This document shows, in pieces, positions 24,601 through 53,630 of a stretch of DNA of 64,000 nucleotides. The stretch comes from Polytrichum commune (taxonomy: Eukaryota > Streptophyta > Polytrichopsida > Polytrichales > Polytrichaceae). Both the position numbers and the translations under genes were made by a program. Where the stretch lies: assembly GCA_950295325.1 (NCBI GenBank), contig OX485808.1, positions 25,562,527-25,626,526 on the forward strand, written 5' to 3'. The number at the start of each line of letters is the position of its first letter. Within the stretch, counting starts at the first letter, position 1. A model generated the notes under the pieces. It saw only the letters and a list, made by a program, of their open reading frames with translations, searched no databases and was not told the origin of the DNA.

Positions 24601-25299
24601 TTTTTCCTAGTGAAAAACCTGCACCTGAATGATGTATAAGATTTCTTATGAACGCCTGATGATTGGACAATCGTGTAGATTTCAAGCAAGAACAACTTCA
24701 ACAGGTCTGAAGTGCTTGTACCTGACTTCTTCAATATAGTCTTGAACGACAAGTGGAAGCTGCTGCCTGCCCTTGTGCAACCGAGGGTTGCAGATATTAC
24801 CAAGGTTGCGGGTGAGATCGACACGCAAGGAGAATAACACATCATCAATGGAACCTTGAGTACGTCTCGCCTGAAGCTCCTCAAGCTTCCCGAGAACAAA
24901 TCCTTCATCATACAGCTTCCATTCATTCAGTGCACCGTCCATGTCGAGCATGCTGGCCGCATTAGCCCACTCATCATAAGTGATGGCAGCTCTCATGAGG
25001 TTTGTGTAATGTTTTTCATGAGATATTATCTCCTCTGACCCAGGGTTTCGCAAGTGCATCCGTCTTCGAAGTGTTCCACCAACGACAATGGCCATCACCG
25101 ATAGTGCAAGGATGGGGCTTGAAGTAATGCCAGAGAATTGAGTCCATGTCAATAGCAATAGCAGAAGTAAAAGGAAACCTCCCCCTCGTCGCCACTGTAT
25201 TATCATACCTCGATCCTTTCTTTCAACCAGTTCCGGTGCCCAATTATTTCTGAAATTAATGTACCTACACACAGCAATGTGGACGTGTTTAGTGGCCAA
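21628..25299 (-). CDS. SDP1-like patatin-domain protein lacking the catalytic Ser/Asp dyad
   Basis: Five exons on the - strand (25299-24722, 24409-23770, 23658-23485, 22995-22852, 22500-21628) give about 802 aa, close to plant SDP1/SDP1-like triacylglycerol lipases (about 800-825 aa). Family landmarks are intact: [80 protein letters not shown] and [14 protein letters not shown]. Hydrophobic stretches lie at residues 41-56 and 58-75. SDP1 normally starts seed-oil breakdown at the oil body. Here the lipase motif GxSxG reads GANMG (Asn261 in place of Ser, AAT at 24205-24207). The oxyanion-hole motif GGGxxxG-type segment reads SGDVALG, and the Asp of the DG motif aligns with Ala415. Introns and frame are intact, so this looks like a pseudo-lipase rather than a dead gene. 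Exon 5 may instead begin at 22482 (18 bp shorter). The start is uncertain: Met1, or Met32 at 25206. Confidence 0.88.
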
Positions 25300-25383
25300 G
25301 TGGGAAGTGCTGATTCCATCACATATAAGAATTTAGTACAGCTCTTCTCTATGAAAACTTGTTGGCAACAAGAAGTCTGCTGT

Positions 25384-28649: not shown

Positions 28650-29510
28650 AGCTTGGGTATTATAAACCGAAGCCGCAAAGTATACCACCTCAATTTGACA
28701 GACATTCATAAGATCAGCTATGCACCAAGCCTGTGTAGCTTTCACCCCTAACAACACTCCAAACTTATGCACTTGATTTCCTCGAGGTGTATTTCTCCCT
28801 GCAGGATCACGTAGCGCTTCAACTCAACATACAGAATGGTCTAACCGACCACAACCGCACTAAGAACATTGTATCCAACTGCACACCACACAGAACTCGA
28901 CTTTGGCACTCACGAGTTCAGAGAATTAAAGCCACATCAGTTAAGCTATACGCGTTGTAAACCGGAGCAGGAAAGTATTGCCATCTCAAATCGCCAGACA
29001 CTCTTAAGAGTGCAAGATATATGATGATACACAAGCAGCTTCACAATCAAGATTATGTAATAGAGAATTGTCGAAGGAGCCGAGCAGGTCCAATGGCCGA
29101 GGCAATACGTTCTAAGCAGCAATTGACTCAAGCAACATCAAACTAGCGTCTATGTGTTGTAAATCGAAGCAGGAAAGTATTGCCACCTCAACTCAAATTG
29201 CCAGACGCTCTTAAGAGTGCAAGATCTACGATCGTACACAAAAGCAGCTACAGAAGGAAGATTCTGTAAGAGAGAAACTGTCGAAGGAGCTCGGCAGGTC
29301 CAATGGCTGATGCATTACGTTGTAAGTAGCAATTGACTCAAGCAACACCAATGAAGCGTTTATGTGTTGTAAACCGAAGCAGGAAAGTATTGCCACCTCA
29401 AATTGGCCAGACGCTCTTGACAGTGCAAGATGTATGATCGTACACAAAAGCAGCTACACAATGAAGACTCTGTAAGAGAGAAACTGTCGAAGGAGCTGAG
29501 CAATACTTAT
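28650..29510. repeat. Imperfect tandem array, unit about 202-210 bp
   Basis: The core CAGGAAAGTATTGCCA starts at 28968, 29170 and 29380. Each unit also carries a CTCTTAAGAGTGCAAGAT palindrome, GTACACAAAAGCAGCTACA and CTGTCGAAGGAGC. A more degenerate unit with CCGCAAAGTATACCACCTCA lies at about 28672. So there are three good copies and one decayed, 0.45-1.3 kb upstream of the membrane-protein gene. Confidence 0.85.
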
Positions 29511-30084
29511 GGTTGATGCGATACGGTACAGGAATACGTACAATGACTCCTATGGGACAAAGCCACCCTGAGAAGATTTGGCAGTTTGTGAAAGGAGGTG
29601 GAGGGAAGAAGATCTACGGTACTGTAGAGCTGGTGGTGGACTTGCTCCACGGCGCTAACGTCGGAAACACGGTAAGTGAAGATTGAAGAACCGGCTGTTT
29701 GTGTGTGGGGCGGAGTCCCATGAAAGAAGCGGTTGCTTGCTTCCAATCTTGCTTGTCTGTACTGAGGCGCGCCGGTCTACTGAATACTCAGGTGGTTCAG
29801 TCCCTCTCCAGGTGTTGGTGGTGATCGATCCCTTGGTGATGAAGGCAAGCGGACTCCAATGTTGGGATACTTATCAAGGTAGATGGGTCTTCAAATGGTT
29901 ACTTTTTCCCAACTAGCCCACTTCTCCTAGGCTACGAAACACACAATTCGAAACAAGATGGTTAGCAAATCCACTTTCCTTGTAATTTTCAGAGCTCCTA
30001 TCACTATCTTTATGAGCTCCTATTATCAAGGTGAAGACTCCCATGTTCATTAGGTGGTCACATAAGCCCCCCTCCAATTACGTT

Positions 30085-37878: not shown

Positions 37879-38429
37879 TGTCATGTAAATAGCGATCGTG
37901 TGTCATTGCTGCTCGAGTACCAACCACCACTAATAAACAACACTAAAATATAGCAAAATTACACATAAATAATACACCTCGACATAGAAGGAAGAGAGTC
38001 AAACACTCATAAGAGCTCTAAATCTCTATTCAAATGCATACAATGAGTCAAGCTATCTCTTACTCCACCACGGGAGAATCCAAGAGTGTAAGTAGGGGGA
38101 GAAGAACTCAAGATTTATTGCAAAAACATGCAATCTTCACCTCACACAAGCTCTCTCTCCACACATTCACTCACAAGACTTGACTTGGCAAGAATGCCAA
38201 GCCAAGGAGGAGGCTCCTCACTTAGGAGCCTTCATCTCCACAAATAAGATTCATCCATCCAAATCTAAATGGATAAAACCCAACAGATAAGGTGTGGCCG
38301 TTGACGCCGCATACCGTGACAGCTGTCGTGTAAATAGCGATCGCGTGTCACTGCAGCTCCAGTACCAACCACCACTAACAAACAACACTAAAACATAGCA
38401 AAATCACACATAAACAATACACCTCGACA
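37879..38429 (-). repeat. A-B-A repeat module with 106-bp direct end repeats; possible 3' LTR or TRIM
   Basis: Two 106-bp direct repeats (37879-37984 and 38324-38429) start TGTC and end CTCGACA. They enclose a 339-bp block B. On the - strand the outer copy starts TGTCGAGG directly after a purine-rich CTGAGGGAGGCA. That is how a polypurine tract meets a 3' LTR, and it follows the gypsy element's coding part. The two copies differ at about a dozen sites, nearly all C/T. No target duplication, TGG-type primer site or matching 5' LTR was found. Block B recurs at 53284-53630. Confidence 0.55.
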
Positions 38430-38758
38430 TGCCTCCCTCAGCTGACTATGGAGTCCCGCCAAGCAGCTAGGACCAATGCCAATCCAAAGGGTATGGATAA
38501 TGAAAGATTGCTCCGCAACTAACTAATGTAGTAAACGTCATTCCAACGAATTGTAGGTTGGGTGCAATAGGAGCTCCATCCTTAATCGCCTCTGATGTTT
38601 GGCCATCAGATTCCAATGAATTAAATCCACCGCCTCATGTTGATTGCGTCTTTAAGCCATAACTCCTCATTTTCCATTTGGGCATGCACAAGATAATGAA
38701 AACCATATAAGATCATTGAGTACGATTGGTGGAAGCACCAAGTACTGAGAGATCATCG

Positions 38759-38893
38759 ACAGCGAGGACAACTCCACTGTCCAGATGGTAGAGAAGTCAA
38801 GGGTGGCCTCAAACATGCCATGTGTCAACCACATTGACACTGATCACACAAGAGCATAGTAGCCACTCTTTTCTTCTCTCCACACACAAAACA
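38759..38893 (-). pseudogene. PHD finger at the C-terminus of the retroelement polyprotein
   Basis: All eight zinc ligands of a Cys4-His-Cys3 PHD finger are present with canonical spacing: CFVC, eleven residues, CDQC, four residues, HMAC, fourteen residues, CPRC. The usual Trp sits two residues before the last Cys pair (WSCPRC). One in-frame TGA (38825-38827) falls between the second Cys pair and the His, at a variable position. The frame is continuous with the SH3-like tail after integrase, apart from the tandem repeat described next. PHD fingers bind histone H3 tails, so a targeting role for integration is likely but inferred. Confidence 0.82.
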
Positions 38894-38972
38894 TGAAAGA
38901 CCCTTTGGCACGATGGCCAGTTCATGATGAATTATACCCTCAATGGGTAGATGACATGGGGCACAGTTTTTG

Positions 38973-39202
38973 GAATGCTCGCAACACTCCATGACATCAT
39001 TGCCTTCCAACAACAACAAACCACTCGGTGGAATGCTCACAACACGCCTTGCCATCCTTGCCTTCCAACAACAACAAACCACTCGGTGGAATGCTCGTAA
39101 CACTCCCTACCATCCTTGCCTTCCAACAACAACAAACCACTCGGTGGAATGCTCGCAACACTCCCTGTCATCCTTGCCTTCCAACAACAACAAACCACTC
39201 GG
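38973..39202 (-). repeat. 58-bp tandem repeat, four copies, inside the retroelement coding region
   Basis: On + the unit starts GAATGCTC at 38973, 39031, 39089 and 39147 and contains CTTCCAACAACAACAAACCA. The last copy is 56 bp. Three extra units add 174 bp, that is 58 codons, so expansion from one to four copies keeps the frame although a single unit would not. Confidence 0.92.
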
Positions 39203-39349
39203 CAACACCTCCTTTACCCGAATGATAGTGCGCCCCGCCCTGACATTCAATGTCGTAGACACCTCACGTTGGAGATAAACATAATCCCCCTGCCGGAATC
39301 TCCGCAACTGAGGTCGGTAAGCACCACTGCGAATGCGTGCATAACGCAA
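39107..39349 (-). pseudogene. Post-integrase SH3-like segment of the retroelement
   Basis: FRQGDYVYLQREVSTTLNV followed by IIRVKEVLPSGLLLLEGKD resembles the small beta-barrel that follows gypsy integrase cores, before the chromodomain-type position. Here a PHD finger follows instead. The 58-bp array begins inside the GLLLLEGKD part. Confidence 0.7.
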
Positions 39350-40065
39350 TGCTTGGTTGTCTGAACAATCCGTTCAACCAAGTCATCCGCCTCTGGATGA
39401 TCCCGAGAGGTGGTGCGGTGATCTATGAGCGCCTTAGTGCACAACTCTTCGAAAGCACCGAGGAACTCCCTCCCTTGGTCCGTCAATACCTCAGCCGGTG
39501 CTCCAAAACGCGCCAACACACGATCCAAAAAGGCGGCCGCGGCCAAATCTGCAGAGTTTTGGGGTAAAGCAACAAGTTCAATCCACTTGCTAAAATGCTC
39601 CACCATCCACCAACGGCCCTGCAAAGTCCAATGACCAACGGTAGTCCAATCCCATGATAGGTAAGAGCTGTAACTGAGGTGACAAGGTGTTAAAACTAGA
39701 GCTGACTCGGTCACAAACTTCACACCTTCCGACATAAGCAACCACCTGCTAATACATGCCAGGCCATGCAACATTGAATGTGTCCTGCGTATGCTAAAAT
39801 GGCCAAGTTTCTCGTGCATTTGTCGCACCAAAGAGGCCCTCTGATCCGGTCTAGGGACAATACGCCTTGTCCCATCGGACCACAATCGAAATAACAAACC
39901 GTTCTCCCAATAAAACCTTGTTATTCGATGTCCAATCCTATTCCTTTCCATTGCCGAGGTAGACGAAAGAAAGGTTCCATGTTGTAGCTTATACAATACG
40001 GGAAGACCTTCCCATATATCCGCAATAGCTTGAGGTTGATCAATCTCATAATCCGAGCCCTGCAT
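39247..40065 (-). pseudogene. Integrase (zinc-binding and DDE core), degraded
   Basis: The zinc-binding part includes LVRQMHEKLGHFSIRRTHSM (HHCC type). Core landmarks are FSKWIELVALPQNSADLAAA and VLTDQGREFLGAFEELC with the second catalytic Asp. DHPEADDLVERIVQTTKH follows, where the family usually has the Glu region. The region between the zinc module and the core has shifted frame (HLSYSSYLSWDWTTVGHW is a shadow reading), and the last part drifts out of frame. Confidence 0.8.
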
Positions 40066-40336
40066 CGGAGCCTCAACAGCCGCACCAGAAAATAAAGTGA
40101 GGTAAGCAGCCGCGTGTTAACCTGGAACCGCCTCTCGATCACAATCTCCATGCCACCTGGTCCCGGCCAAGTCCTCATCCGAAGGACTTGGATTGCGTGA
40201 GAGTCCATCTGCATCCAGGTTGGTAATCCCAGCACGGTGCACCACCTCAAAGTCATACTCCTAGAACAGCAAAGCCCATATGGCGAGATTACCGGTAAGC
40301 TTATCCGACTCCATGAGCCACCGTAATGGCTGATAA

Positions 40337-40567
40337 TCAGTCACCAAAATAAAGCGCTGACCATAAAGATATGGCCGAAAATGGCAAGAACCCACACCGC
40401 CGCCAATGCCTCTTCCTCATAAGACGAATAATTGGCCTCCGCCGTGTTGTTGCTTCGCGACGCGTAAGCAACAACATACTTCCGGCCAAAGTCATCTTTC
40501 TGAGTGAGAACTGCTCCCAAACCCAATGAGCCCTAGTCCATATGCAACTGGAAAGATTTGGAGACAT
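40337..40567 (-). pseudogene. RNase H domain, degraded
   Basis: GLGAVLTQKDDFGRKYVVAY, then ASRSNNTAEANYSSYEEEAL and AAVWVL are typical of the Ty3/gypsy RNase H core, including the Glu of the YSSYEEE region. A frameshift follows at about 40385, after which the expected FRPYLYGQRFILVTD reading is found in another frame. Confidence 0.8.
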
Positions 40568-40622
40568 CTGGATGTCGAAGCACTGGAGCCGTACCCAGTT
40601 TCTACTTCAACGTCTCAAATGC

Positions 40623-41006
40623 CTATTGTTGCTTACAACCCCAAATCCACGGTTGGTCCTTGCTCGTGAGAATGGTGAGAGGCTTGGCGATCAAGCTAAA
40701 GTTCTTGACGAATCGACGATAGTAATTTGCCAAGCCCAAGAAAACACAAAGTCTCGACACATCGACCGGTGCCGGAATCTTCTGCAAGGCGTCCACCTTA
40801 GCTTGCTGCACTCCAAGACCTCCTTGAAAAATCATATGACCTAGATATGCTAGTCGGTTATGGAAAAACTTGCACTTGCCGTGGTGCAAACGCAATCCCC
40901 ACTGCTGCAACTGTTCTAAAACGGCTTGCAGATGCTTCATATGCTCTTGTGTTGTCCTGCTGAAGATGATCACATCGTCTATGTAACACCGAGCAAAGGG
41001 CAAGCC
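40623..41006 (-). pseudogene. Reverse transcriptase, 3' part
   Basis: Contains the catalytic RCYIDDVIIFS motif and the thumb and connection landmarks KCKFFHNRLAYLGHMI and FLGLANYYRRFVKNFSLIA. Its first codons are separated from the rest of RT by the DNA transposon at 41007-43120. Confidence 0.88.
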
Positions 41007-43120
41007 CACGGGGAGGTCACTTAGTGCATTTTAAAAATGACGTGCGGCATAATATAGGGAGGATTAAAATCATTCGACATAAAAATTATAAAAGAATTCC
41101 AAATAATGAAGGGTCCATTAAAAGTACATAAGCCCATTACAAGTAAAATAGATAGGTATAAAATATGGGCCATTACCTTTTAGTAAAAATAATATAGGGG
41201 CTGAAAATAAGGATCTTAGGATGTATGTTTAGTAAAATCAATTTCGTACGCATGCCTCACGAGGGATAGATGAAAAATTATTCATCATTCACCCAAAAAT
41301 GGATGAAAATGGATGAAATTGGAAGCCTAACTCTATGCCCGACTTCTCTTGGTGGTTTTTCTCCCCTTCTCTTTTGAAACTCTTCAACCCGATCGAAGGG
41401 TGCCCGTTTGTGCAGAACATTTGAGCCTCACCGTTGTGTTTAGGGTTTAGGATTGCTTGTCGTCATCTTCTTCTCCAATCTTGTGTAGAGTTTTTTAGCC
41501 AGACTGCGTGGTCTGATGCGGAAACCTTGAAGAGCAGGTCTGAAACGATCCACAGAGATTAGTGATCATTGAATGACGTGGTTATTCTGATTGTTAGTCA
41601 GTTTCTACTCCCGAGCTTTGCATGAACTAAGCATAGCGCATGCTTGTTGTCCTCCTATTCTCCAATCTTGTGTCGATGTTTTCACTAGGCTGAATTTTAT
41701 GATGCGAAAGCTCGCTTGCCTCGCCCTCCCACTTTTGTAAAGGAGAGTAGTGATTACCTTCAACACTTGAGTTTGCGTTTTTTGGCCTTTCAATCATTGA
41801 CGCCCCGGCCCTCCCTCTCATCAGTCCCTCTCCTTTCTCTTCCGCCTGCTTGGGGAGCACCCATTGCAATTTCCTCTCTTTCTCTCTCTCTCTTCATTAG
41901 ATGTTTTTTCTGCACATGGAGAAGAGCAGACGACGAAATCATTAGTAGCAACGGCGGCAGAGGCATCAAATGCTATGTCTGTTTACATGTTGAGAGGAGG
42001 GTTGCAACAAAATTAGGTTCTCAATGTTTTTCTATCCAAAGATAGATTAGCAAGAATTAAACATAGTATTCATTTCAACAACCATGATAATTGTCTCCAA
42101 GCAAGATCTTCATGTGGATCAAGATTGTTATGTATAGGATCTGATTGTGGGGTGCATTTTGTCCAACGAAGCACAACAATGCTATTGTCAAATGTAAAAT
42201 CCGTTGCCAAACGAAAAAGGGGACGTTCAATGACTGATGTTAAAGCTGGAAATGCTACTAACATATTGAACGGAGTAGATTCCAGTTCATGGTGGGTGGG
42301 TAGGATGCAAGCTATGCGGCGGCACAATGGGAAACAATTTGGAGTACTTAGGCAAGCAGTTGACCTCCTTGCTCGAACGGAGGAATTAGGGAGGAGAAAT
42401 CCTAATAATCCCCACATCAAAGTAATGTTGCAATATTATAGAAAATATCCAGGCTATAACAAATTTAAGTATGATCACACGGATAGCAAATGGATTGATG
42501 TAGATTGCATTATATCTACATTAACCATGAGTTACAATTCTACAAATGAGGTGTACACTCTTGATAGGAATGATTCAGAGCAACTATCCAAGTTTGTGAC
42601 AGAACGAACTATATAAGATTCATGACCAAGCTTAAAGTGTTTCACACTGTATGGTTTTGGTCTTCACTAGCATGTAAAGTGATTTTGAATCAAGAATTTT
42701 TATGGAGCGGGTATTGTATTTGTGAACACACACACAATCTTGTTGTGTTTGTAAACACACACTCAATCATGTTGTATTCCATCCTAAGTCTTCTTTTTGT
42801 ATTTTCACTTTAAGTTTTTGTACTTGGTTTTTGTATGGTACGTAATTTTTATATTTTTTTGTTGCCATGCTTTTTCCATCACTTTTGCATTGCATACATT
42901 CTTAAATTTAGTTTTTTTAATTAAAAGGAATATAGACTACAAAAAATTTCAATGACATGGGCATTATAAGTAATGGTAGGGTACAAAAAAATAGGCCATT
43001 TTAGAATATTATGTAATTATAGGGAGTTTTTAATTCGTGCCTTGGAGGTAAATAGCCCCTAAACAAATACCCCTCTGCCGCACGTGGTACACAAAAATCC
43101 TACTGAGTGACCTCCCCGTG
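41007..43120. mobile_element. DNA transposon with TIRs and 8-bp target duplication, inserted in the RT gene
   Basis: GGCAAGCC is duplicated at 40999-41006 and 43121-43128. The ends CACGGGGAGGTCACTTAGT and ACTGAGTGACCTCCCCGTG are inverted repeats with one mismatch in 19, and ACGTGCGGCA recurs about 35 bp inside both ends. The length is 2,114 bp. An 8-bp duplication suggests the hAT superfamily, but the CACGGG termini are not typical and no transposase is recognisable, so it is probably non-autonomous. It lacks in-frame continuity with its host. Confidence 0.9.
42029..42616 (+). CDS. Unidentified ORF inside the 2.1-kb transposon, possibly a captured exon
   Basis: The reading frame is open from an acceptor-like CAAAATTAG ending about 42018 to TAA at 42616; an ATG-initiated form starts at 42125. 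The product is basic and non-repetitive (VAKRKRGRSMTDVKAG, FGVLRQAVDLLARTEELGRR, SKWIDVDCIISTLTM). A CT-rich tract ending in TTCATTAG near 41900 suggests further introns upstream. I do not recognise it as a transposase. It may be a host gene fragment carried by the element, or a diverged element protein. Confidence 0.4.
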   Translation, partial: FLSKDRLARIKHSIHFNNHDNCLQARSSCGSRLLCIGSDCGVHFVQRSTTMLLSNVKSVAKRKRGRSMTDVKAGNATNILNGVDSSSWWVGRMQAMRRHNGKQFGVLRQAVDLLARTEELGRRNPNNPHIKVMLQYYRKYPGYNKFKYDHTDSKWIDVDCIISTLTMSYNSTNEVYTLDRNDSEQLSKFVTERTI

Positions 43121-43490
43121 GGCAAGCCAGAGAGGCCCTGGTCCATCACCCTTTGAAACTCAGCAGGTGCATTCTTCAAGCCAAATGGAAGAAATTTCCA
43201 ATGGTAAAATTGATCATTCCCATCTTGATCAACTCCCCAGAATGCGGTTTTCACCTGATCTCCCACAAGTAATGGAAGTTGGTGATAGCCGGATCTCAAA
43301 TCCAAGGTGCTAAATACTCGAGAAAATCCAATGGTATCGAACAATTCCTTCGGGATTGGCATGGGATATCGATCCGACTTGGTCTTCCGATTAACTGGAC
43401 GGTAATCCCCGCACATCCGCTTCTCCGTTCAATTGCCAAAGATATCATTCTTTGATGGCATAACCGTAGCACAAGCATATTTCCCGTTGG
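43121..43490 (-). pseudogene. Reverse transcriptase, 5' part
   Basis: CGDYRPVNRKTKSDRYPMPI, STLDLRSGYHQLPL, VKTAFWGV and FLPFGLKNAPAEFQRVMD are the fingers and palm motifs of Ty3/gypsy RT, including the first catalytic Asp region (TLDLRSGYHQ). A frameshift lies just upstream of CGDYRP. The frame resumes in the 40.6-41.0 kb segment on the far side of the insertion. Confidence 0.9.
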
Positions 43491-44119
43491 AAAGTTCGAT
43501 TAACCTTGCTGCCAAGAGCTCTCGACAACGAGCCTGAACGCCAATCTGGTCGGAAACACTGAGCCTATAAGGTCTTTGAAAAATGAGATGGTCATCCTCC
43601 AACTGAATGTGGATGGGTTTTCCTTTTTAACCTTCAACACCATGAAGGCTAAAAGCAAAACATCTACGGTACAAGCGAATAAATACTCGTACTTTTCGTG
43701 CCTCAGCACCAGTGAGATGAGGGCCTAATTCCAATGGCCAATCATCAAACTTTGTGGTCTTCCTCTCCACCAAAGGGGAGCCACCTGGTGCTAGCACAGA
43801 CTCTAACTACTAATGAGAGGAGGAGGCATTAACCATGCCCCCAACCTCCGTGCTAGCAATAGAGTCTATCCCCTCTTCATCACCACCAATATGTGATGAT
43901 GAAGCCACCACCGGAGGTGAAGAAGCCAAAGCAGTTTAAATCCGTTGACTTCGGAGCTCCTCCATCACCTGCTGCTTAAATCGAAAGATTCGTTCGGCTT
44001 CTCCAACCATGACCTCAATTCCCTCCTCCATGGACATGGACCGATGTGCCCCATGACCAAAATCCTCTGCTCCCAGAGACAACAAGTGGTCACCATGATG
44101 TCGTTGCAATGTAAGGCAT

Positions 44120-45391
44120 AAACCAACAGTCCACATCATGGTATGAAGATCCATGGCTTGGCCCAACACGAAGCGTCGTTGGCCCTCAGAAAAGCTAGGA
44201 GTTGCGGTGGTGCCAATGCGGAATCCCATGGCACGCTCCCGTTCGTCGGCCAATGGTTCGGTGTGGGTTTTGGCATGAGCATCCCACACCATACCCGGCC
44301 CCCGATTGCGGAATGCAAATGACTGTGGAAACGTCATAAAGGTGGAAAAAGACCCGCCGTGGTGCCCCCACTTTGTTGACCAATGCCAACGGGGGTAAAT
44401 TATCTCGAACAATCGGCAAAGAGGTCCGGTGCAGATCCAAAATGTCATCCATCTTCTAAGCAAAAGGTGGAGGCACTGTAGAAAATGTTGCAGCCAAAGT
44501 AGATGACGGTGCGAGGTTGGTCCAAATCCACCGAGGCCGGTGGACATAGGAACCAATACTCGTGGCATCCACAAAAATGAGATCTCCAAGGTGTTGATGA
44601 ACATAATGACTGCCTTCCAATACCTTGTCCCGAGAGTCTCCCAACAAAGGTACATTCTCGAAGATATACCTTGGAGGGGAAGGCTGGTGGGAAAACCACC
44701 ACTGCATGAGGTGGATGAGTTCCCAAAATAGACTAAACTTGGGATCCTCTAAACCGCGGCCTGCTCCAGCACGTGAATGGCCTTGGCATGGCCATCCCGC
44801 AATCACCATATCCACCGGACCCAAGTGTCGTTAGTCGGCCTCACTAATGAATGTGAAATCACGAGGGAGACGTGAAAAACACCCACGAATGGCATTCGGT
44901 TGTAATTGTTGTGGGTACAACACCATCAACTGGTAAAGATGATGACGAGCCACACGGGTGGACACTTGAGAGTTGTCCACATAAACATACTGTCTGACCG
45001 TGACGCCAACCTCCAATACGGCCGCTAAGCCCGTGCCGATGCCCCCAAACAATTCCACCAAAGTGATCTCCGCGTCTGGCGGGCGCCACAAAATGGGGTG
45101 TGCCAACGCCGATGGGCTATCCGGTATGACCGGGTTCATTGAGGCGAGAGAGAGGACAATGTCCTCACATCGCCGGAATAGCTCGGCGGAATCGCGGCAA
45201 GGAGGATGAGGATCCTGGGAATGGCACACCAATGTACTGTGAGGTGCCATCTCTCGTTGTTCCTCAACACTTGTCATAAATGCTAACGATTCCTCCAATA
45301 ATGCGGCACCATAAGGCAATGTGTCCACAATAGCACCACATCCAAAAACCATGGATAATAGTGCTATGGTCGCGGCCACCGTAAATGCCAC
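44120..45391 (-). pseudogene. C5-cytosine DNA methyltransferase domain within the retroelement pol
   Basis: Cytosine methyltransferase motifs occur in order. Motif I is VELFGGIGTGLAAVLEVG near 45060-45007. Motif IV is IAGWPCQGHSRAGAGRGLED with the catalytic Cys near 44785. Motif VI is YIFENVPLLGDSR near 44665, motif VIII is VHRPRWIWTN near 44545, and a motif IX/X-like region is FVLGQAMDLHTMMW near 44172. Such enzymes methylate cytosine C5 with S-adenosylmethionine. An in-frame TAA at 44831-44833 separates motifs I and IV, and a frameshift separates VIII from X, so this copy is inactive. The domain lies between protease and RT. The PCQ form and motif layout differ from plant DRM enzymes. Identification is strong; the subfamily is not resolved. 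Confidence 0.87.
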
Positions 45392-45694
45392 AGGAATAAG
45401 TTCTCTACGGCCGTCTCCAGCCGACCAACCCAGTCAGATCCAAGCCTCCTCAGTCCAGTTGTCCAAACCAAAACCAAGGGAATAAAGTGCTTATTGACCA
45501 ACTAAAATATCATAGTTGGTCGTATATATCACTACACACCTGAAAAAATGAGGTGCGGGTGGACCTCCAGGCTTCACTCAGAAGCTAAGCTGTAATGGCC
45601 CCCAAGTATAACCCGTGGTCCCCTCCACGTGACCAATGGATGTGACAATGGTGAATGGACATGGAGCCAAATCTTCGGCCGCCAACCCCAACTC

Positions 45695-46912
45695 CTAGGT
45701 AAACCTCTTGCTGATCATAAGCAGTTGTGCCCCTAAATCCATCATCACACAACGGGTAGCAACCCGAGTGGCATTGCCCCTAGTCCGACTGACCACCAAA
45801 ATGCTAAAATCATTCACCATACGTACAACGCCAGGTTGGATGTCTAGACACTCGCGAGTAGGTCGAGCAGTGACATCTAAGAAATAAGTTGCGCCCGAGG
45901 AGGTTAGTAAATCATAAAATGAGGTAGGTTCTTGGTCATCCAAGGTGTGTGCATAAAAAAACGCAATGGGCTCTCGTGCAAGCCTCGCTCGTTGTCTAGC
46001 CGCTGCCTCCGGATCCTTCGTGGTAGGAAAGTCAGCGGGGGCTTGAGCCACAGTCAAAGAAGACGGGGATGTCTTTCCTTCCAAAATCCTACCTGCTAGG
46101 TAAAAAACCTTAGCGGGTTGGATGTCGGATGACAACCAATCCATCGATGTGAACAAAAGGGTGTGCAACACTTTGGATGCCAAAGTGTGCACCATGTCAG
46201 TCGCCGGATTCAAGGCCTCCAAGCTCGAATTACAACCACTGACAAATTGGATAGCATCTGCCAATCCAAAACATAATGGCAGACGGGCCTGGCCAATATG
46301 ATCCGCAGGACCATTGTCCCGAGCTCGTAAGCTATCCACAGACTCCCCTGTGGTCGAGGGCATGGCTCGTGACACGGATTGAGCCCGTGTCACCGCTGCG
46401 GAATTCATCATTTGCCCTGAGGCTCTGAATATATAATAATCCGGAATGAAAGAACTAGCCTTAGCGGCGGAGGAGGACGGTAAGTCCAAGATTTGGCCGG
46501 ATGACGCCAAAATTTTGAACCTCTCCTCCAATGCTCCAATTTTTGCCTCCAACGTTTTTTTCCGATCGGAAGAATGACGTTTATCTGGATGGAGAGCAAA
46601 GCAGTTCTTCACCACGTGATTGTTCCGCCCACAATGGGAACACGTCAACTGCTTGGGTAAATGGTTACCCGCCCTCTTCGTTGAATTCTTAGTGGGAACA
46701 TATGGTTTCCGCTTCGGATTACCTACGGTTTGGGCTTGCCTTTGCTTCGAAGGACAATCCATCTTAGCGTGGTCCGCCTGCCCACAAGACCAATAATGCA
46801 AGGTCTTGTCTACCTTTGTCTGTGCCAATCCCGCAGCCACAACCGAAACCTTCCGGGATTTGCTAGAATACACTAGCATGAGCACTAAGTCAGTGGTGTC
46901 GTGTTGACACAA
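45695..46912 (-). pseudogene. Gag nucleocapsid and aspartic protease segment
   Basis: The segment has two zinc knuckles. The second is canonical (CSHCGRNNHVVKNC). The first reads YWSCGQADHAKMDC with Tyr where the first Cys belongs. A helical LEAKIGALEERFKIL follows. The segment ends in the protease start CVMMDLGAQLLMI at about 45748-45710, where the usual D-S/T-G-A reads D-L-G-A. TAG at 45695-45697 follows, and the same frame stays open beyond it. Nucleocapsid packages element RNA; the protease would process the polyprotein. Confidence 0.8.
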
Positions 46913-46924
46913 AACACGATTACA

Positions 46925-47560
46925 TTACTCAATAATGGAAAAAACCTCTTCAAGTGTCGCCCGACCATCATAATCCATTATGATCCTGGGCAGCGCTAAG
47001 TCAATGAGGCGTTTGTCAATCTTTGATAAAAAAAACCTTCACCAACTGGCTTCTTGCGAAAACACCTCCAGATTCCCTGGCAAACCTCGCCAACCTCGTG
47101 TACATGGTACGAGATGTGCCCTCTTACTCCCGTTGAAAGTCCCGGATACGTTGCATTTGATCTTAGCGGAAACCTCCATATTCCTCCTCCAAATGGAGTT
47201 GGAATTCATGTAGAGCATCAAAATCTGGCGGAGCTCCTAAAAAAACTAATGCCGCTTGAGTAGCCTGGGCATAACGAGAGACTGGAAGAATTGGGCTCGA
47301 TGTACTTGCTGCGGCGGGAGCATGACCTTTAGCCTTGGGTTCACTAGGAGAAGCTCCCTCCACATCCACCACATATACTCCCTCTGGCACCCTCCGTCTC
47401 AACCTCAAGAACGGCCATCAAACTAGAAGTTGCGCCTTCCTTCAATGCGGATACCAACTCAATATGTGTCTCCCAGTACCGCTCCACATGGCGCAGCTCC
47501 ATCCACTGAGCCTCCGTCCATTGTTCATAAGTCTGGAGCGCCTCGTGCTCCAAATATTGA
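46925..47560 (-). pseudogene. Gag capsid region, broken
   Basis: Gag-like helical pieces lie in two frames: ALQTYEQWTEAQWMELRHVE, VSRYAQATQAALVFLGAPP and IDLALPRIIMDYDGRATLEE. TAA at 46925-46927 separates the last piece from the zinc-knuckle segment. The weak conservation is typical of gag; position and order support the call. Confidence 0.6.
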
Positions 47561-48159
47561 GGCAGTAGCTTGAACGCATACCGGTCATTAAAACTACTAT
47601 TGCGTTGACGTTTCTCCCTTATTTATGTCCTGAACCAAATTTTCCAATCTTACAGGGAAATGGTCCCCGCTCGACCGGAAAATCGGTATCGGATGCCATC
47701 TCGTGTGTCCTCCTTCATCTCGTCAAAGAATCCCACCCAAAGGATGTGAGACCGAATGGCAGTCCCTCACGCCGAAGTAGGCTGAAAAACCTCGTCGGGT
47801 GCTACCACTGGTTCAACGTCCAAGAGGTCCGAGAATCAACCTTCCGATGATGCCGGAGATGGAGAACGATAATGTTGGCTCCGAGTTGTAATCATAAACC
47901 CGCAATGGGTTCAACCAGTGGAACTAACAACCTAAACTAATGTAGTGTCAAGGGAAAGGGTCAAAAGGTGAAATGCAACCTACACCTGCAAACACCACCA
48001 AACTTATGGTCTGTTGATCATCAATCTAGCCTCACCATAAGGGAATACAAGGACCGCCCACTTGGTGCATAAATAAAGGTCCCGTCGGTCATTATTTTGA
48101 CCTCACCCCCACAATACCCTATCATAAACTAATACAACAAGTGTGGGAGTCCAAATTTG

Positions 48160-48829
48160 ACGGAAATACGGAAATACGGAAATACGGATCCATTTTCCGT
48201 ATTTTTGCTTACCTTAGTGAGGACAATAAGGTCTCTTAGGTTAAAATTTAGGGTACTGGGAATTAGGGCGATCTAAATCCGTCTTACACGATAAAAAGAA
48301 GAAAAAAATGTATGATTACCGGACCGGTAAATTGGATTAGGGGACCGTTTGAACATGGTCCGGACCGCTGGGCCGGACCAAGTAACGGTTATGCCACGTT
48401 CAACTAACGGCCCAGAAGAGGAAAGACAGTTACAACGGACTTATGATGATGGGGGGGGGGGGGGAAGAACGCCGTTGGTAAAACTGTTAATTATACCGTT
48501 GGTAACAACCGCTGGAAAACGGTTGGCAACCGTTTTCCGTTAAACCGAACGGTAACAGGGGAAGGAAGGAGGAAGGATACTTAAGGGTCCCTTCCTTCTC
48601 CTCCCCATTTTTTCTCTCTCTGATCACAAAAGGCAAGTTGTTGAGAGAACGAGTGGTGAGTTTTCCGTCATTTCGAGCCACCAGCAGTTGGATTGCTGGG
48701 ACTCCGCACTTTCCAGTCACCGGCAGTTGGCTTGCCGGGACTCTGTAGCCATTAGCCGGAGCAGAGGGAACCCGGAGGGGAGAGAGAAAGTTTCCGTAGT
48801 CGAGCCGGAAAGTTAGAAGGGAGAGAAAA
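48160..48829 (+). other. 5' non-coding part of the second, gag-only-like element
   Basis: Holds an 8-bp repeat (CGGAAATA three times, 48167-48192) and several CCGTT/AACGG inverted pairs around 48360-48555. A 14-G run starts at 48451, and a TATA-less CT-rich leader follows. A 43-bp tandem pair is built on CACCGGCAGTTGGCTTGCCG (48680-48750). It is probably an LTR and leader, but no matching partner was found. Confidence 0.45.
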
Positions 48830-49728
48830 ATGCCGGAAGCACGGGAAGAGGATCAGAGGGAACCCATCCCGATTCCACTCAAAGCCCTCATCCCTGCAAT
48901 CCCGAGGGAGGATAGGGAGCTGCAGGAGCTCGCGGAAGATCTCCGCGTGATGGGCTGCGCAGGGTGGCTCTCCAAACCTTGGAACCTCCGAGCAGAAGAT
49001 ACCCTCCGAGAGTTCAAATTCGAGAGGGGAAATCAGTGGCTAGGGACAAGGAGGAGGGATCCGGAAAATTGGACTCCGGATACCTAGAATAGGGTCTACG
49101 GGTTTCCTAGGGGGATTGCGGAGGGGTGGGCGGCCGCCGCGACGGCCTGTTCGCCGGGAAATTCAGAGGGGACGCGGATCCGAAGGACAGCTTCCACCCC
49201 GGGAACTGCCGGAACATGAGAGAGCGAAGGGTGTTAGAGTTCCTCCTGCCTATCCTTAACCCGGACAAGCCGAAGCGGATTAGCCTTACCATGGCTAACA
49301 CCCTGTTCGGTGCTATGTCCGGAGTCCGGCCGGTGAACTGGGGGCTAATTATCCAGGAAATAGTAGGGCGGGCCATCCCCCATATTGGCCAGAAACCCTC
49401 CTTCCTCTCCCCCTTCATTTTGCATCTCTACCAGCATTTCGACTGCATCTTGGCAGAGGAGGAGGATCTGCTAACGATAGCGGCGGACGAGGTCGCCTAC
49501 AAGCTCCTTCCGGAAGCCGGAGACCTCGAGACGGAGACATCCAGCGACCCGATCATTCCGGAAGCACCTCCCTCCTCACCCGGGAGCCCGCCGCCCACCA
49601 TCTCGAGGCCACTCTCTCCTCCTCTTCCTCATCATCATCCGGAACCCGGACCCAGCCGGGAGACCACTTGGCGGAATGTGGACCTCGCCGCTTGGGACTT
49701 TCCGGAAAATCCCTTCAAGCGGGTCTAG
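48830..49728 (+). pseudogene. Retroelement gag-like N-terminal region with stop and frameshift
   Basis: The frame starting ATG at 48830 (ALIPAIPREDRELQELAEDL) stops with TAG at 49085-49087. Beyond a frameshift near 49125 the protein continues as RRDGLFAGKFRGDADPKD and RISLTMANTLFGAMSGVRP, followed by VNWGLIIQEIVGRAIP, then a Pro-rich end. It stops with TAG at 49726-49728. This kind of sequence is common in plant LTR elements without pol, as I recall it; no motif proves the family. Together with the next ORF it probably formed one long protein. Confidence 0.55.
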
Positions 49729-49734
49729 GAGGGG

Positions 49735-50868
49735 ATGGAGGATCTTCAAAACCAGTACTACCGGTTGGAGCACATCGTCCGAGGAGCAAACCAGGCCTTG
49801 GACGACTGCGGACCCGGAAATATTCTCCGGGAGTTGGCCAAGAGAGCGGACCGGAAGGAGCTTGAGCAGGTCAAGACGGAGAATGCTCACCTCACCGCGC
49901 AGGTGGCAGCCATGACTCAGGAGCTGAGTCAGAAGAGCGAGGAGATCCGGAAGTACCACGCGGAGCAGGCAGTGGTCTTCAGTCGGATCCGGGAGTTGGT
50001 GGGGCATCCGGCGAAGATCGTCAACAAGGCGCATCTCTACGACCGGATGATGGAGTCCGGAGAACCCGCTTCCGCTAGGCAGACCCTCCCCATCCTCGTG
50101 AAGTATTCACGGACGATGAAGGATCTCATGGCGGAAATCCAGAAAATGGTTCCGCCAAGCGGAACACCCCAGCGAGTACTCTATCCGGGCCCGCCTGGAT
50201 CACCAACCGGAACCCTCTATGAGGTGGTTGGTGAAGTGGCCCTGGTTGAGAATCCGCCGACGTCTGCAGGACCCAGCCAGCAGGGAGGCGGCTCTCGGCC
50301 TAGTAGTTCCGGAGGGGCTCCGGACAGGGTCCGTTCTCCACAGGTGAGGAGGAAGAGCACTGGGTCCGTTCAATCCGGACGAGGCCAGTCCCCTGTTCCA
50401 CGGACCTCGGATCAGTCCCGGACTCCGGATAGGGTTAGGACGCCAATTCGGCACCAAACTTCGGATCGGGAGGCAACTCCGAGTAGGGGTAAGACCCCTA
50501 TGACTCAAGCCTCACCGTCTTCTCCTCCGGACTGCCAAATGGTTAGTCCATTCCGTCCGCCACCTTCAAGAGCGGCCTCCAACAGGGATCCGCGGACTGC
50601 TTCGATCTCGGGCGGGCAGAATCTGGAACAGCGTACCGGAAGCGACCCTTCTCCGGTCCGGAGCATTCGGAAGGGGAGTACAGTTTCCGGAACCCCAGGG
50701 ACTGAGAGAACCTCGGACTCGGAAGATGAGATTGCCCCTTCTCCGAACATGAGGAGGATGCTTACGCGGCTGCAGAAGGCATCGCCGGGAGGCGGCTCAT
50801 CTGCCGTCAGCGGACTAGGCAACCATTCGAAGGAGGGATCGGCTCCGAAGAAGCCCCGCTCTTCTTAG
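49735..50868 (+). CDS. Coiled-coil, Ser/Pro/Arg-rich gag-like protein, C-terminal part
   Basis: 377 codons are open from ATG to TAG, in the same frame as the preceding segment and only two codons after its stop. A natural readthrough or a single mutated codon would join them. Residues 1-90 form a coiled coil (ADRKELEQVKTENAHLTAQV). Residues 150-370 are low complexity, rich in Ser, Pro, Arg and Gly, with repeated RTPDRVRTP-like units. The ORF contains at least ten CCGGA words in its last 830 bp. No pol, protease or zinc knuckle accompanies it, so the element would depend on others. A silent host gene is a less likely alternative. Confidence 0.5.
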   Translation: MEDLQNQYYRLEHIVRGANQALDDCGPGNILRELAKRADRKELEQVKTENAHLTAQVAAMTQELSQKSEEIRKYHAEQAVVFSRIRELVGHPAKIVNKAHLYDRMMESGEPASARQTLPILVKYSRTMKDLMAEIQKMVPPSGTPQRVLYPGPPGSPTGTLYEVVGEVALVENPPTSAGPSQQGGGSRPSSSGGAPDRVRSPQVRRKSTGSVQSGRGQSPVPRTSDQSRTPDRVRTPIRHQTSDREATPSRGKTPMTQASPSSPPDCQMVSPFRPPPSRAASNRDPRTASISGGQNLEQRTGSDPSPVRSIRKGSTVSGTPGTERTSDSEDEIAPSPNMRRMLTRLQKASPGGGSSAVSGLGNHSKEGSAPKKPRSS

Positions 50869-52150
50869 CTTAGAATGGCAGATTAGTTAGGTAGAATAGA
50901 GGTAGGAAGGTAGGACTTAGAAGTTTTTGAAGAGGAGGGATGAAATTCTCCCTTGAGTATGTTAGCGGAAAACCCGGATCTTGATCCGGGAAATCCAGGA
51001 GAACGGATACAATTAGGGTTTTCCTTAGGGGCGGCCGCCTGGGCCGCCACCCTCAGGTTAGGGATTTTAGGGCCTCTACTTAAGGCTGAATAAGGAGTTG
51101 GGGAAGGGTTCCTTCTCCATTGTTGTATTTCGATTGCTCCTACTCTAATAAATTACTTGGTTTCTCACTCCTTGACTTTCCTTGATTGATGTTTGCGTGG
51201 ATGATCCGGAGATCGTTAGCGGAGGAGAGAGAACATGAGGGATAGGAGTTCCGGATAGGACATGGGAGAGGAGACCCGGATCTGATCCGGTTACTGCCTT
51301 GTAGATCCTCTGTGTGTGTAGTGGGAGGGAAACCTCACTAGCCCGGATGATTGAGTAACGTCTAGGTGGGATAGCCGCTGGGAGGATTGGGTGAGGTCCG
51401 GAAGGGATCCGGACTCACGCCAATCTGATCTTCTGAAGAGGTCCCACCGCCCTTAGACGGATCAATCCGGGAGGTGGTACGGATCGCCCAGTTAGCTCAG
51501 ATTGAGTAGAATCCAAGGTAGAGGTAGTCGGATAGATCTGTCGGAAAGAGAAGGGAAGGACCGGATCAGTAAGGGTTTCGGGTTGGAGGCCACCTCAGGA
51601 ATGTAGTGGAAGAGATCCTCATTGTTCCGGATGTCTGGGTAACGTCCAGGTGAGATAGCCATGGGGAAGATTGAGCAAAGGTCCGGAAGTTATCCGGAAT
51701 TGCGCCAATCCGATCTTCTGAAGAGGTCTCATCGCCGGAGGACGGGACAATCCGGAAAGTGGTACGGGTCACGCACTTCACCCGTCGAGTCAGATCTCCG
51801 GTTGGAACCCGGACTCCTCTAGTCACTGTGGTCCTAAGAAATAATCCGGATCTCTCTGCGTGACCTGCCAGGACGGATCTGATCAATCCGGATTGATTGT
51901 GAGGGAGTTTCCGGATTCTAATCTTACAAAGGACGTCTTCGCCGGAAGGAACCACCTATTCTAGAGGGCAGACGTAGAGGGGTGAGTTAGCGTTATAATT
52001 AGGACCTAGAGGCACAATCCGGAAAGGCACTCTCCGGAAGAAGACGAAGAGTATCCCAAAGACCAAAAATCCAGAAATTAGGATTTCCGGAAATTTGGCT
52101 AAGGAAGAGGAGATAAGCAGGAACGGAAGGTTCTAAACCTCCTACACTTC
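50869..52150 (+). other. 3' non-coding part of the gag-only-like element
   Basis: CTACTTAAGGCTGAATAAGG and CTCTAATAAATTAC at 51075-51155 could be a promoter and polyadenylation region of a 3' LTR. Downstream CCGGA occurs more than twenty times in about 1 kb. A diverged 285-bp duplication lies inside. Confidence 0.45.
51341..51910. repeat. Diverged tandem duplication, offset about 285 bp
   Basis: GATCTTCTGAAGAGGTC at 51427 recurs at 51712. The surrounding blocks GAGTAACGTCTAGGTGGGAT, GGTCCGGAAGGGATCCGGA and GGAGGTGGTACGG have counterparts in order. Confidence 0.8.
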
Positions 52151-53283
52151 ACAGAATCCCTGGACGATACTAGGGTCATCCGGACAAAATCGGATTAGGC
52201 ACTTAAAAACGCCGATCCGGATATGTTGGTGTTCGCGTGTTCCCACAACAAGAAATTGGCGAATGCCGACAACTGCCAGCAATACAGCCCGCCACAGGGA
52301 AGGTACCAAAACAAAATACAGAAAACAATGCACTTTTGAACACTGGATTATCTTCCCCAAACAACACTTAAGCATAAATAGGAATTGACCGCATCCAACC
52401 GGCACCCGCCTGCGGTTGGTGGTAAAAAATGAAGATTTCCTGTTGCCATGAAAAGAAAATAGCACCTATGCACATCTCTCATTCCCCCATTATTATCTAA
52501 GAATCTCTCTTTACAACAATGTCGGGAATATATGTTGATAAATACAATTTGAACCTATAACAATTTATTTTAGGCCGAACGGAAATTCCACATGCCACCC
52601 AATGTCCAATAGCACCCCCTCGGAAATTTTGTTCAGCACAACTCTGAAAAGAAATCCCAAGTACCTTAATATTTTATAAGAGCTTTGGGTTTTCTACCTT
52701 GTGTACTTGATTAATGAATACAAAGTTTCCGCCAAAATTCATCTTCCTCAATCCCCATGAAATTAATCTCTTAGAGAGAGAAAAAATTAGAAGTTGAAGC
52801 AAACATAAAATAAATAAACAATTTAATTAAAATTTAAAGAACCGGTTTTAATTCATTAATTAGAAAGAACACTAATAATAATTAAATAAACAGATAGCCC
52901 GGGAGGAGCTAGGGGGCTCTGGTTCCCAGAGAGCTCTTCCCCCCCCCCCCTCTTTTTTTATTCGATTTTTTTTGTGATTGTTTGATTCAAATCTTCTCTT
53001 TAGAATCACAACTCCGCTTCCAAAGATCAATGTCTCAAATTCAAGCTTGAATGTGAGCAAAATAACACGAAATTCCGTGGAAAATTCAAGGATTTCTCAC
53101 CACACTTCAATTTGATGTGACATTCACAAGAAAATATTTTTCTTCTTGTTGTTTCAACAATCCGCGGCTTTCTCCGCTCCAAAACTCCAAAACTTTGTCG
53201 TTTCTTACCCCCACGCGTCCCCTTGCGCGTTAAATGTCAAGAAGAAAAAAAAAACAAAATAGAAAAATGAAGCATTCTTGCCA
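52151..53283. other. AT-rich intergenic DNA
   Basis: No gene seen. A C-run at 52939-52950 and purine-rich stretches are the only notable features. Confidence 0.6.
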
Positions 53284-53630
53284 AGTGAGAAAGAAGAGAG
53301 TCAAACACTCATAAGAGCTCTAAATCTTTTTTCAAATGCACACAATGAATCAAGCTATCTCTCACTCTACCACGGGAGAATCCAAGAGTGTAAGTAGGGG
53401 GAGAAGAACTCAAGATTTATTATAAAAACATGCAATCTTCACCTCACACAAGCTCTCTCCACACACTCACTCACAAGACTTGACTTGGCAAGAATGCCAA
53501 GCCAAAGAGGAGGCTCCTCACTTAGGAGCCTTCATCTCCACAAATAAGATTCATTCATCCAAATCTAAATGAATGAAACCCAACGGATAAGGTGTGGCCG
53601 CCGACGCCGCATACCATGACATGTTGTATA
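53284..53630. repeat. Repeat block B, second copy
   Basis: Matches 37988-38323 over about 335 bp in the same orientation, with some 18 differences by eye. Nearly all of these are transitions. It starts after TGCCAAG|TGAGAAAGAAG and ends ATACCATGACA, so TG...CA ends are possible. The 106-bp repeats that flank the first copy are absent here. Confidence 0.85.

Follow-up and report, generated by a model that had tools for sequence, protein, structure and literature searches.

The analysed window, a stretch of 64,000 nt from Polytrichum commune, contains a decayed Ty3/gypsy retrotransposon copy on the minus strand, which spans positions 37879–53621 including later insertions and whose ends were matched to the termini of young copies. 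The copy begins with the 5′ terminal repeat a1 (about 53288–53621). It continues with an ORF1 region of broken frames comprising gag, zinc knuckles, protease (PR), linker and methyltransferase (MT) (43813–47908, by alignment to the young copy L063), and with a likewise broken ORF2 for reverse transcriptase (RT), RNase H (RH), integrase (INT) and a PHD finger (38756–43806). It closes with the internal terminal repeat b1 (38323–38430), the terminal repeat a2 (about 37986–38321, matched to a1 and to the young copy) and the 3′ terminal repeat b2 (37879–37985, matched to b1). Repeat a, about 340 bp long, thus stands at both ends with 93% identity between a1 and a2, and the 108-bp repeat b flanks the second a on both sides; b1 is 92% identical to b2 and 94.5% to the young copy. 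The same order of gag, zinc knuckles, a protease-like stretch, MT, a two-part RT, RNase H and integrase was obtained on the minus strand by six-frame reading and Pfam, with gag and zinc-knuckle matches below threshold. The aspartic protease region was placed approximately at 45416–45865 by alignment to residues 681–830 of L063 ORF1, and its motif reads VMMDLGAQ as opposed to VMMDSGAQ in young copies. ORF2 was delimited by tblastn of L063 ORF2 and by Pfam (RVT_1, 1.6e-12 and 1.5e-12; rve, 4.2e-10). Its integrase is partly deleted, and the PHD finger at its C terminus (38758–38895) corresponds in tblastn to residues 934–1035 of L063 ORF2. The flanks of the window copy, TGTT and TCTC, do not form a 4-bp target-site duplication.

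A preliminary description of the window had proposed a C5-methyltransferase at 44120–45391, between the protease and RT of a gypsy polyprotein. The domain itself was confirmed by a PF00145 match of 37.3 bits (cut-off 22, E 2.8e-9), which spans only the surroundings of motifs IV to VI. As had been claimed, motifs I, IV (PCQ), VI (ENV), VIII (RPRW) and X (LGQAMD) are legible in this order on the strand of gag and RT, with RT directly downstream. This is the minus strand, which also carries PR and INT; motif X lies in a different frame from the others, and RT begins at 43806. Alignment to L063 placed the DNMT3-type domain at about 44044–45106, so that the proposed interval contains most of it, includes part of the linker and ends just short of the domain end. 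The order protease, MT, RT also held; the MT is, however, not located within one continuous Pol frame but forms the last domain of ORF1 (gag-PR-MT). The whole ORF1 region aligned with that of L063 in one unbroken alignment of 84.9% identity over 4,100 nt. Running through the MT, this alignment excludes a chance resemblance and also, for the window copy, an independent insert with separate ends, which the preliminary description had named as a possible objection. Because in-frame stops at 44831–44833 and 44456–44458 and a frame change near 44300–44376 interrupt the MT, the window copy is dead. Transitions at cytosines were found in CG at 57 of 398 sites (0.143) and in CH at 188 of 1,659 (0.113), as compared with 90 of 1,763 A/T sites (0.051). 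The raised CG and CH values fit ordinary later methylation and silencing by the host; they neither separate the readings discussed below nor indicate a mark made by the element itself.

The window copy has been modified by several further events. A 2.1-kb DNA transposon at 41007–43119, with inverted ends CACGGGGAGGTCACT and a 9-bp flanking repeat GGCTTGCCC, interrupts ORF2 within RT. The 5′ region of the element carries a GC-rich insert (48139–52276, about 54–55% GC) with plus-strand ORFs at 49111–50868, for which Pfam returned sub-threshold matches of coiled-coil type only. At 38971–39260, tandem 58-bp copies multiply part of the coding region for the integrase C terminus.

To define the element in less decayed form we used copies from the source genome, which totals 407.8 Mb over 64 contigs; seven contigs, of 42–78 Mb, came up in the analysis. 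A search with PF00145 yielded 353 candidates, the best 123 of which were scored and lay above the cut-off; 18 of these 123 stood in stop-free frames of at least 1,350 aa. MT matches of 63–100% identity were obtained for the best 120 of 597 candidates. Both MT lists together correspond to 181 distinct places, one of which is a host DRM gene; not every place that only PF00145 detected was confirmed as this element. Ten copies were fetched, selected for long frames. Their gag-PR-MT frame was open across the fetched part in 10/10, and an ORF2 of 1,045–1,048 aa was also open in seven. A set of 30 long-frame copies drawn from the MT list showed PR, MT and RT colinear in every case.

We then looked at the MT from the side of the RT. 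Querying with the L063 RT and RNase H, we scored the best 89 of 3,261 candidates (88–100% identity), a survey that covers close RT relatives of L063 and not the more distant RTs of the genome. For 74 of the 89 an MT match was present at most 6 kb upstream (71 within 2.2 kb, three at 2.3–3.8 kb), when 120 MT rows and 122 of the 123 PF00145 rows were paired with RTs according to position and side, allowing 6 kb and disregarding the MT strand. The other 15 were fetched, and each has an MT or a remnant of it upstream; in six (L096, L097, L098, L099, L102 and L106) the match is partial, either through deletions or because the fetched sequence ends there. Among the 89 best-scoring of 3,261 candidates we therefore found no RT relative lacking the MT. 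The copies thus bear out the claim that the MT belongs to the element, and the younger ones keep its frame open.

Where decay is less advanced, ORF1 and ORF2 lie in one frame, divided by a single TAG, with the MT as the terminal domain of ORF1 on the Gag-PR side and RT in ORF2 past the stop. The TAG is followed by CARYYA in 43 of the 45 copies examined overall, which are not independent counts given their common ancestry. All 30 long-frame copies have it (CAATCA in 17, CAATTA in 11, CAACCA and CAGTTA in one each), as do 13 of the 15 copies found via RT, the two misses being one TAG TAATTA and one unreadable site. In the window copy the corresponding context is TAG TAG TTA (43804–43812). CARYYA after UAG is the readthrough context of tobacco mosaic virus, and from its sequence the UAG between ORF1 and ORF2 is probably leaky. 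ORF2 is closed by a PHD finger, which in two young copies matched PF00628 above the cut-off (E 2e-10 and 1.4e-10); the nearest solved PHD fingers by sequence belong to chromatin proteins such as CHD4, PHF12, KMT2D and plant ATXR5. PR, RT, RH and INT (rve) follow one another in gypsy order, with protease matches in Pfam below the gathering score in the two young copies. In ORF2 of two copies no phage-integrase match indicative of a tyrosine recombinase appeared at E 0.01, with rve present, and in ORF1 of two copies Pfam gave no match to ADD or PWWP.

Next, we asked to which family the MT belongs. By sequence it scored 72 bits with DNMT3A and 22 bits with DNMT2, motif X being matched as a weak third segment, and the AlphaFold2 (AF2) model of the L063 domain was closest to DNMT3A in structural alignment (VIA-align). 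On the basis of predicted fold and sequence, the MT is nearest to DNMT3 and not to the rearranged DRM type. It shares fold and motif order with DNMT3A and DNMT3B, from which it differs in showing only 22–26% identity in the structural alignments and PCQ in place of PCN. Its motifs run I-IV-VI-VIII-X, unrearranged, and PCQ and EN are invariant in alignment A1 (24 sequences). Membership in DRM was rejected, as the MT does not have the rearranged order with VI–X before I–IV. A host DRM-like exon was found in the source genome (L095, 965–1555, minus strand), in which, as read by eye, motif X precedes motif I and PCN is present. Direct origin from the host's own DRM was rejected on account of this rearranged order and PCN. 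The presence of this exon differs from what is stated for P. patens in PMC10952607, namely that orthologues of DRM1/DRM2 are missing, and speaks against a Physcomitrium-like moss as host.

The MT was broken in frame in four of the 30 long-frame copies; of the other 26, five had a stop and 21 had none. PCQ, ENV and RPRW were retained in all 26 sequences without frame break, and all five exact motif strings in 21 of them. The 21 stop-free MTs, selected for open frames and forming 210 non-independent pairs, gave a median dN/dS of 0.24 (quartiles 0.19–0.31, maximum 0.56) for the 32 pairs with 0.05<dS<1, and a median of 0.14 for the 108 pairs with dS>1. Between L055 and L063, where dS is saturated, dN/dS was 0.125 for the MT, 0.26 for the preceding linker and 0.53 for the following tail, as against 0.037 for RT, 0.026 for INT and 0.09 for PHD. 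By this measure the MT is under weaker constraint than RT or INT. Within the L055-type subfamily dN/dS of the whole ORF1 ranged from about 0.28 to 1.5 (28 pairs, dS 0.002–0.04), which is no proof of constraint. Overall, differences in the MT between copies look as if they had accumulated under constraint.

The termini of the element are unusual. In nine of ten copies examined the order is a-coding-b-a-b, with a alone at the 5′ end and b-a-b at the 3′ end. The 5′ and 3′ stretches of these nine have only repeat a in common (94.6–100% identity), and repeat b, of 105–110 bp, lies on both sides of the 3′ a. Identical complete LTRs at both ends were consequently not found, the 5′ end carrying only a. 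L074/L057 showed neither a1 in the fetched 5′ stretch nor a b repeat, and L068/L059 has an additional internal duplication. Nine copies begin with TGTCACG and finish with CACGACA, and a perfect 4-bp target-site duplication surrounds each of the nine copies for which both ends were fetched. A GGGGGCA tract stands immediately upstream of b1 in nine copies. In addition, 13–15 nt at the a1 end are complementary to the interior of a in all four copies examined, a count made without a shuffled control. The letters of this complement differ between the two subfamilies, and in the L055-type it starts 6 nt before the a1 end as drawn by BLAST. Self-primed elements such as Tf1 show a comparable complement, and the arrangement suggests self-priming. 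With a primer site at the a1 end and a polypurine tract before b1, ordinary reverse transcription would yield b...a ends. The insertions have the opposite arrangement, starting with a and finishing with b. If the integrase uses ends inside the LTR, the palindromic b-GC-a junction (GACA-GC-TGTC) would have to open first, in an intermediate that is circular or permuted.

Taken together, we are highly confident of the architecture, that of a multi-copy Ty3/gypsy element with gag-CCHC-PR-DNMT3-type MT in ORF1, UAG-CARYYA, RT-RH-INT-PHD in ORF2 of the same frame, split repeats and 4-bp duplications.

To find related elements in other species we performed two protein searches, which gave 24 and 71 relatives. 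Fourteen of the 24 (P0002–P0015) measure 1,252–1,451 aa with 41–59% identity to the searched region, and the sequences of P0002, P0004, P0011 and P0014 contain gag, zinc knuckles, PR and MT. Marchantia polymorpha accounts for four of the 24 (P0016, P0017, P0019 and P0020), in one of which the MT is followed by RT and RNase H, and Calypogeia fissa for one of the 71 (P0035). No protein named as Klebsormidium was among the relatives returned. These proteins support the extension to land plants that the preliminary description had put forward. The Marchantia models MARPO_0091s0058, Mp_8g17980, MARPO_0008s0049 and Mp_8g15430 are 35–37% identical to the searched region; as in the present element, Mp_8g17980 has the order gag-PR-MT, and MARPO_0091s0058 has the MT followed by RT and RH. 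The Marchantia and Calypogeia relatives are filed as 'hypothetical' gene models, Mp_8g17980 also under a 'DNA (cytosine-5' name, and not as an element. A tree of 58 MT rows unites the liverwort proteins and P0030 in one clade, and the window sequence groups with L063-type copies of its own genome. Other proteins place the MT differently: P0022 has it between RNase H and integrase, P0024 downstream of RT-RNase H, and P0021 and P0046 upstream of the integrase. The more distant P0021 combines MT, INT and a PHD finger in one protein, and a methylation writer with a PHD reader may be an old pair. P0025 has a C5-methyltransferase upstream of a different RT and also matches Dam adenine methyltransferase below threshold (E 0.0022). 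P0028, which is closely related to the element protein, is assigned to the bacterial MAG Candidatus Obscuribacterales, probably through misbinning of a contig from a plant or alga. From the IMG/VR viral collection, 46 loci at 24–43% identity were set aside.

Retrotransposons with methyltransferases in dinoflagellates and in the charophyte Klebsormidium, mentioned in part by the preliminary description, are indeed on record in de Mendoza et al. (2018, PMC5890265). Among them is a Klebsormidium gypsy element that carries a DNMT3 and has DIRS-like repeats. As described there, KnitGypsy-Dnmt3 of Klebsormidium nitens shares with the present element the gypsy domain set, an unrearranged intronless DNMT3-type domain and DIRS-like repeats; the A-coding-B-A-B order is the DIRS-type arrangement, which the authors also give for KnitGypsy-Dnmt3. 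Purifying selection on its DNMT is reported as well (PMC5890265). The present element is accordingly of the same kind, a gypsy element with a DNMT3-type domain and A-coding-B-A-B repeats. It is set apart from KnitGypsy-Dnmt3 by description: KnitGypsy-Dnmt3 is said to have its DNMT in the Pol polyprotein ORF, whereas here the MT lies outside the Pol ORF, as the last domain of the Gag-PR ORF, ahead of a UAG that is probably leaky. A word search of the main text of PMC5890265 for PHD, readthrough, protease and Marchantia found none of them. SymbioDIRS-Dnmt3 resembles the present element in having DNMT3 beside RT and A-coding-B-A-B repeats but is described in the same text with a tyrosine recombinase and a DIRS-type RT (PMC5890265), in contrast to the DDE integrase found here. 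Membership in DIRS/PAT was rejected, given rve without a tyrosine recombinase in ORF2 of two copies and 4-bp duplications in nine of nine; DIRS/PAT elements are not known to generate a target-site duplication. As far as the literature was searched, the new features are the MT on the Gag side, ahead of a stop that is conserved and probably leaky, the PHD finger, split repeats combined with 4-bp duplications, the complement suggestive of self-priming, the presence of many open-frame copies in one genome and the liverwort relatives. No report of DNMT-bearing gypsy elements in bryophytes was found at the level of titles and abstracts, most subscription papers lying outside the search.

How might the element use its enzyme? 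We favour a combined explanation, with a probability of roughly 55%, in which an MT made at Gag level is packaged, the RNA primes itself, cDNA is methylated before integration and the PHD finger aids targeting. Translation would mostly end at the UAG, giving Gag-PR-MT as the major and the full polyprotein as a minor product. Given the UAG context, Gag-PR-MT is likely the main product, and the enzyme would then be a bulk particle component, present in Gag-like and not RT-like amounts. The element RNA would prime itself via the 13–15-nt complement between the a1 end and the interior of a. The MT would methylate new double-stranded cDNA in the particle before integration, whereby the cDNA would enter the nucleus marked like resident DNA, and the PHD finger would help to select the insertion chromatin. 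New cDNA is on this view the most likely main substrate, to which we give just under an even chance. More tentatively, the element may unite a writer (DNMT3, in Gag-like amounts through a leaky UAG) and a reader (PHD) in one retroelement whose DDE integrase uses ends inside the LTR made by RT. The earlier suggestion that the element methylates its own copies or host DNA is a conjecture on function.

An unlikely but serious alternative is that the target of the MT is chromosomal DNA of the host around the insertion site, where the MT as writer, together with the PHD reader, would create a compatible chromatin niche or limit further jumps. The co-occurrence of PHD and MT in one element, repeated with INT in P0021, and the likeness of the PHD finger to those of CHD4, PHF12, KMT2D and ATXR5 speak for it, but the MT lies on the Gag side of the stop, apart from INT-PHD, which suits a particle component better than a targeting tail. 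The position in the Gag half would equally suit a domain kept for nucleic-acid binding or particle assembly and not for catalysis, and the Klebsormidium gypsy DNMT3 produced no visible methylation in yeast, a result deemed inconclusive by its authors in the accessible text (PMC5890265). However, PCQ, ENV and RPRW persist in 26/26 unbroken MTs, with PCQ and EN invariant in 24, and we regard a purely structural role as improbable. DNMT2 methylates tRNA, and the MT could by analogy methylate the element RNA, which it would accompany if packaged; the same idea has been raised for SymbioLINE-Dnmt (accessible text of PMC5890265). As the nearest family is DNMT3 and not DNMT2 (72 bits for DNMT3A versus 22), this seems a shade more improbable still. 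Finally, the broken frame of the window copy, and nothing else, could point to a one-off fragment of a host gene or to an assembly error. That reading is already refuted by 120 MT matches in the genome (the best of 597 candidates), the MT upstream of RT in 89/89 scored relatives (best 89 of 3,261) and the relatives in other species, and we give it practically no weight.

DNA methylation is a main route by which plants silence such elements. An element that keeps its own methyltransferase of de novo type across species is for this reason a testable paradox: a parasite equipped with the kind of tool that hosts use for silencing parasites. The young open-frame copies and the domain layout provide predictions on packaging, cDNA methylation, self-priming and integration at the internal junction. 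Mp_8g17980 also serves as a warning for annotation: at least this one Marchantia model, named as a DNA (cytosine-5) methyltransferase, is laid out as gag-PR-MT in the manner of an element protein. Outside the element, the window contains exons of an SDP1-like triacylglycerol lipase gene (23734–25332, minus strand). A search with this lipase gave 47 hits, and in a 26-row tree that used 25 of them the window groups with P0097, P0098 and P0100, outside the named liverworts (53% identity) and the vascular plants, a position that fits a moss or a streptophyte alga, although neither is named among the 47 hits. The window branch is long, and the tree program warned of long-branch attraction; P0099, 93% identical to the other exon, stands apart because it covers different columns. 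Tandem repeats of about 200 bp with 80–83% identity lie at 28929–29525.
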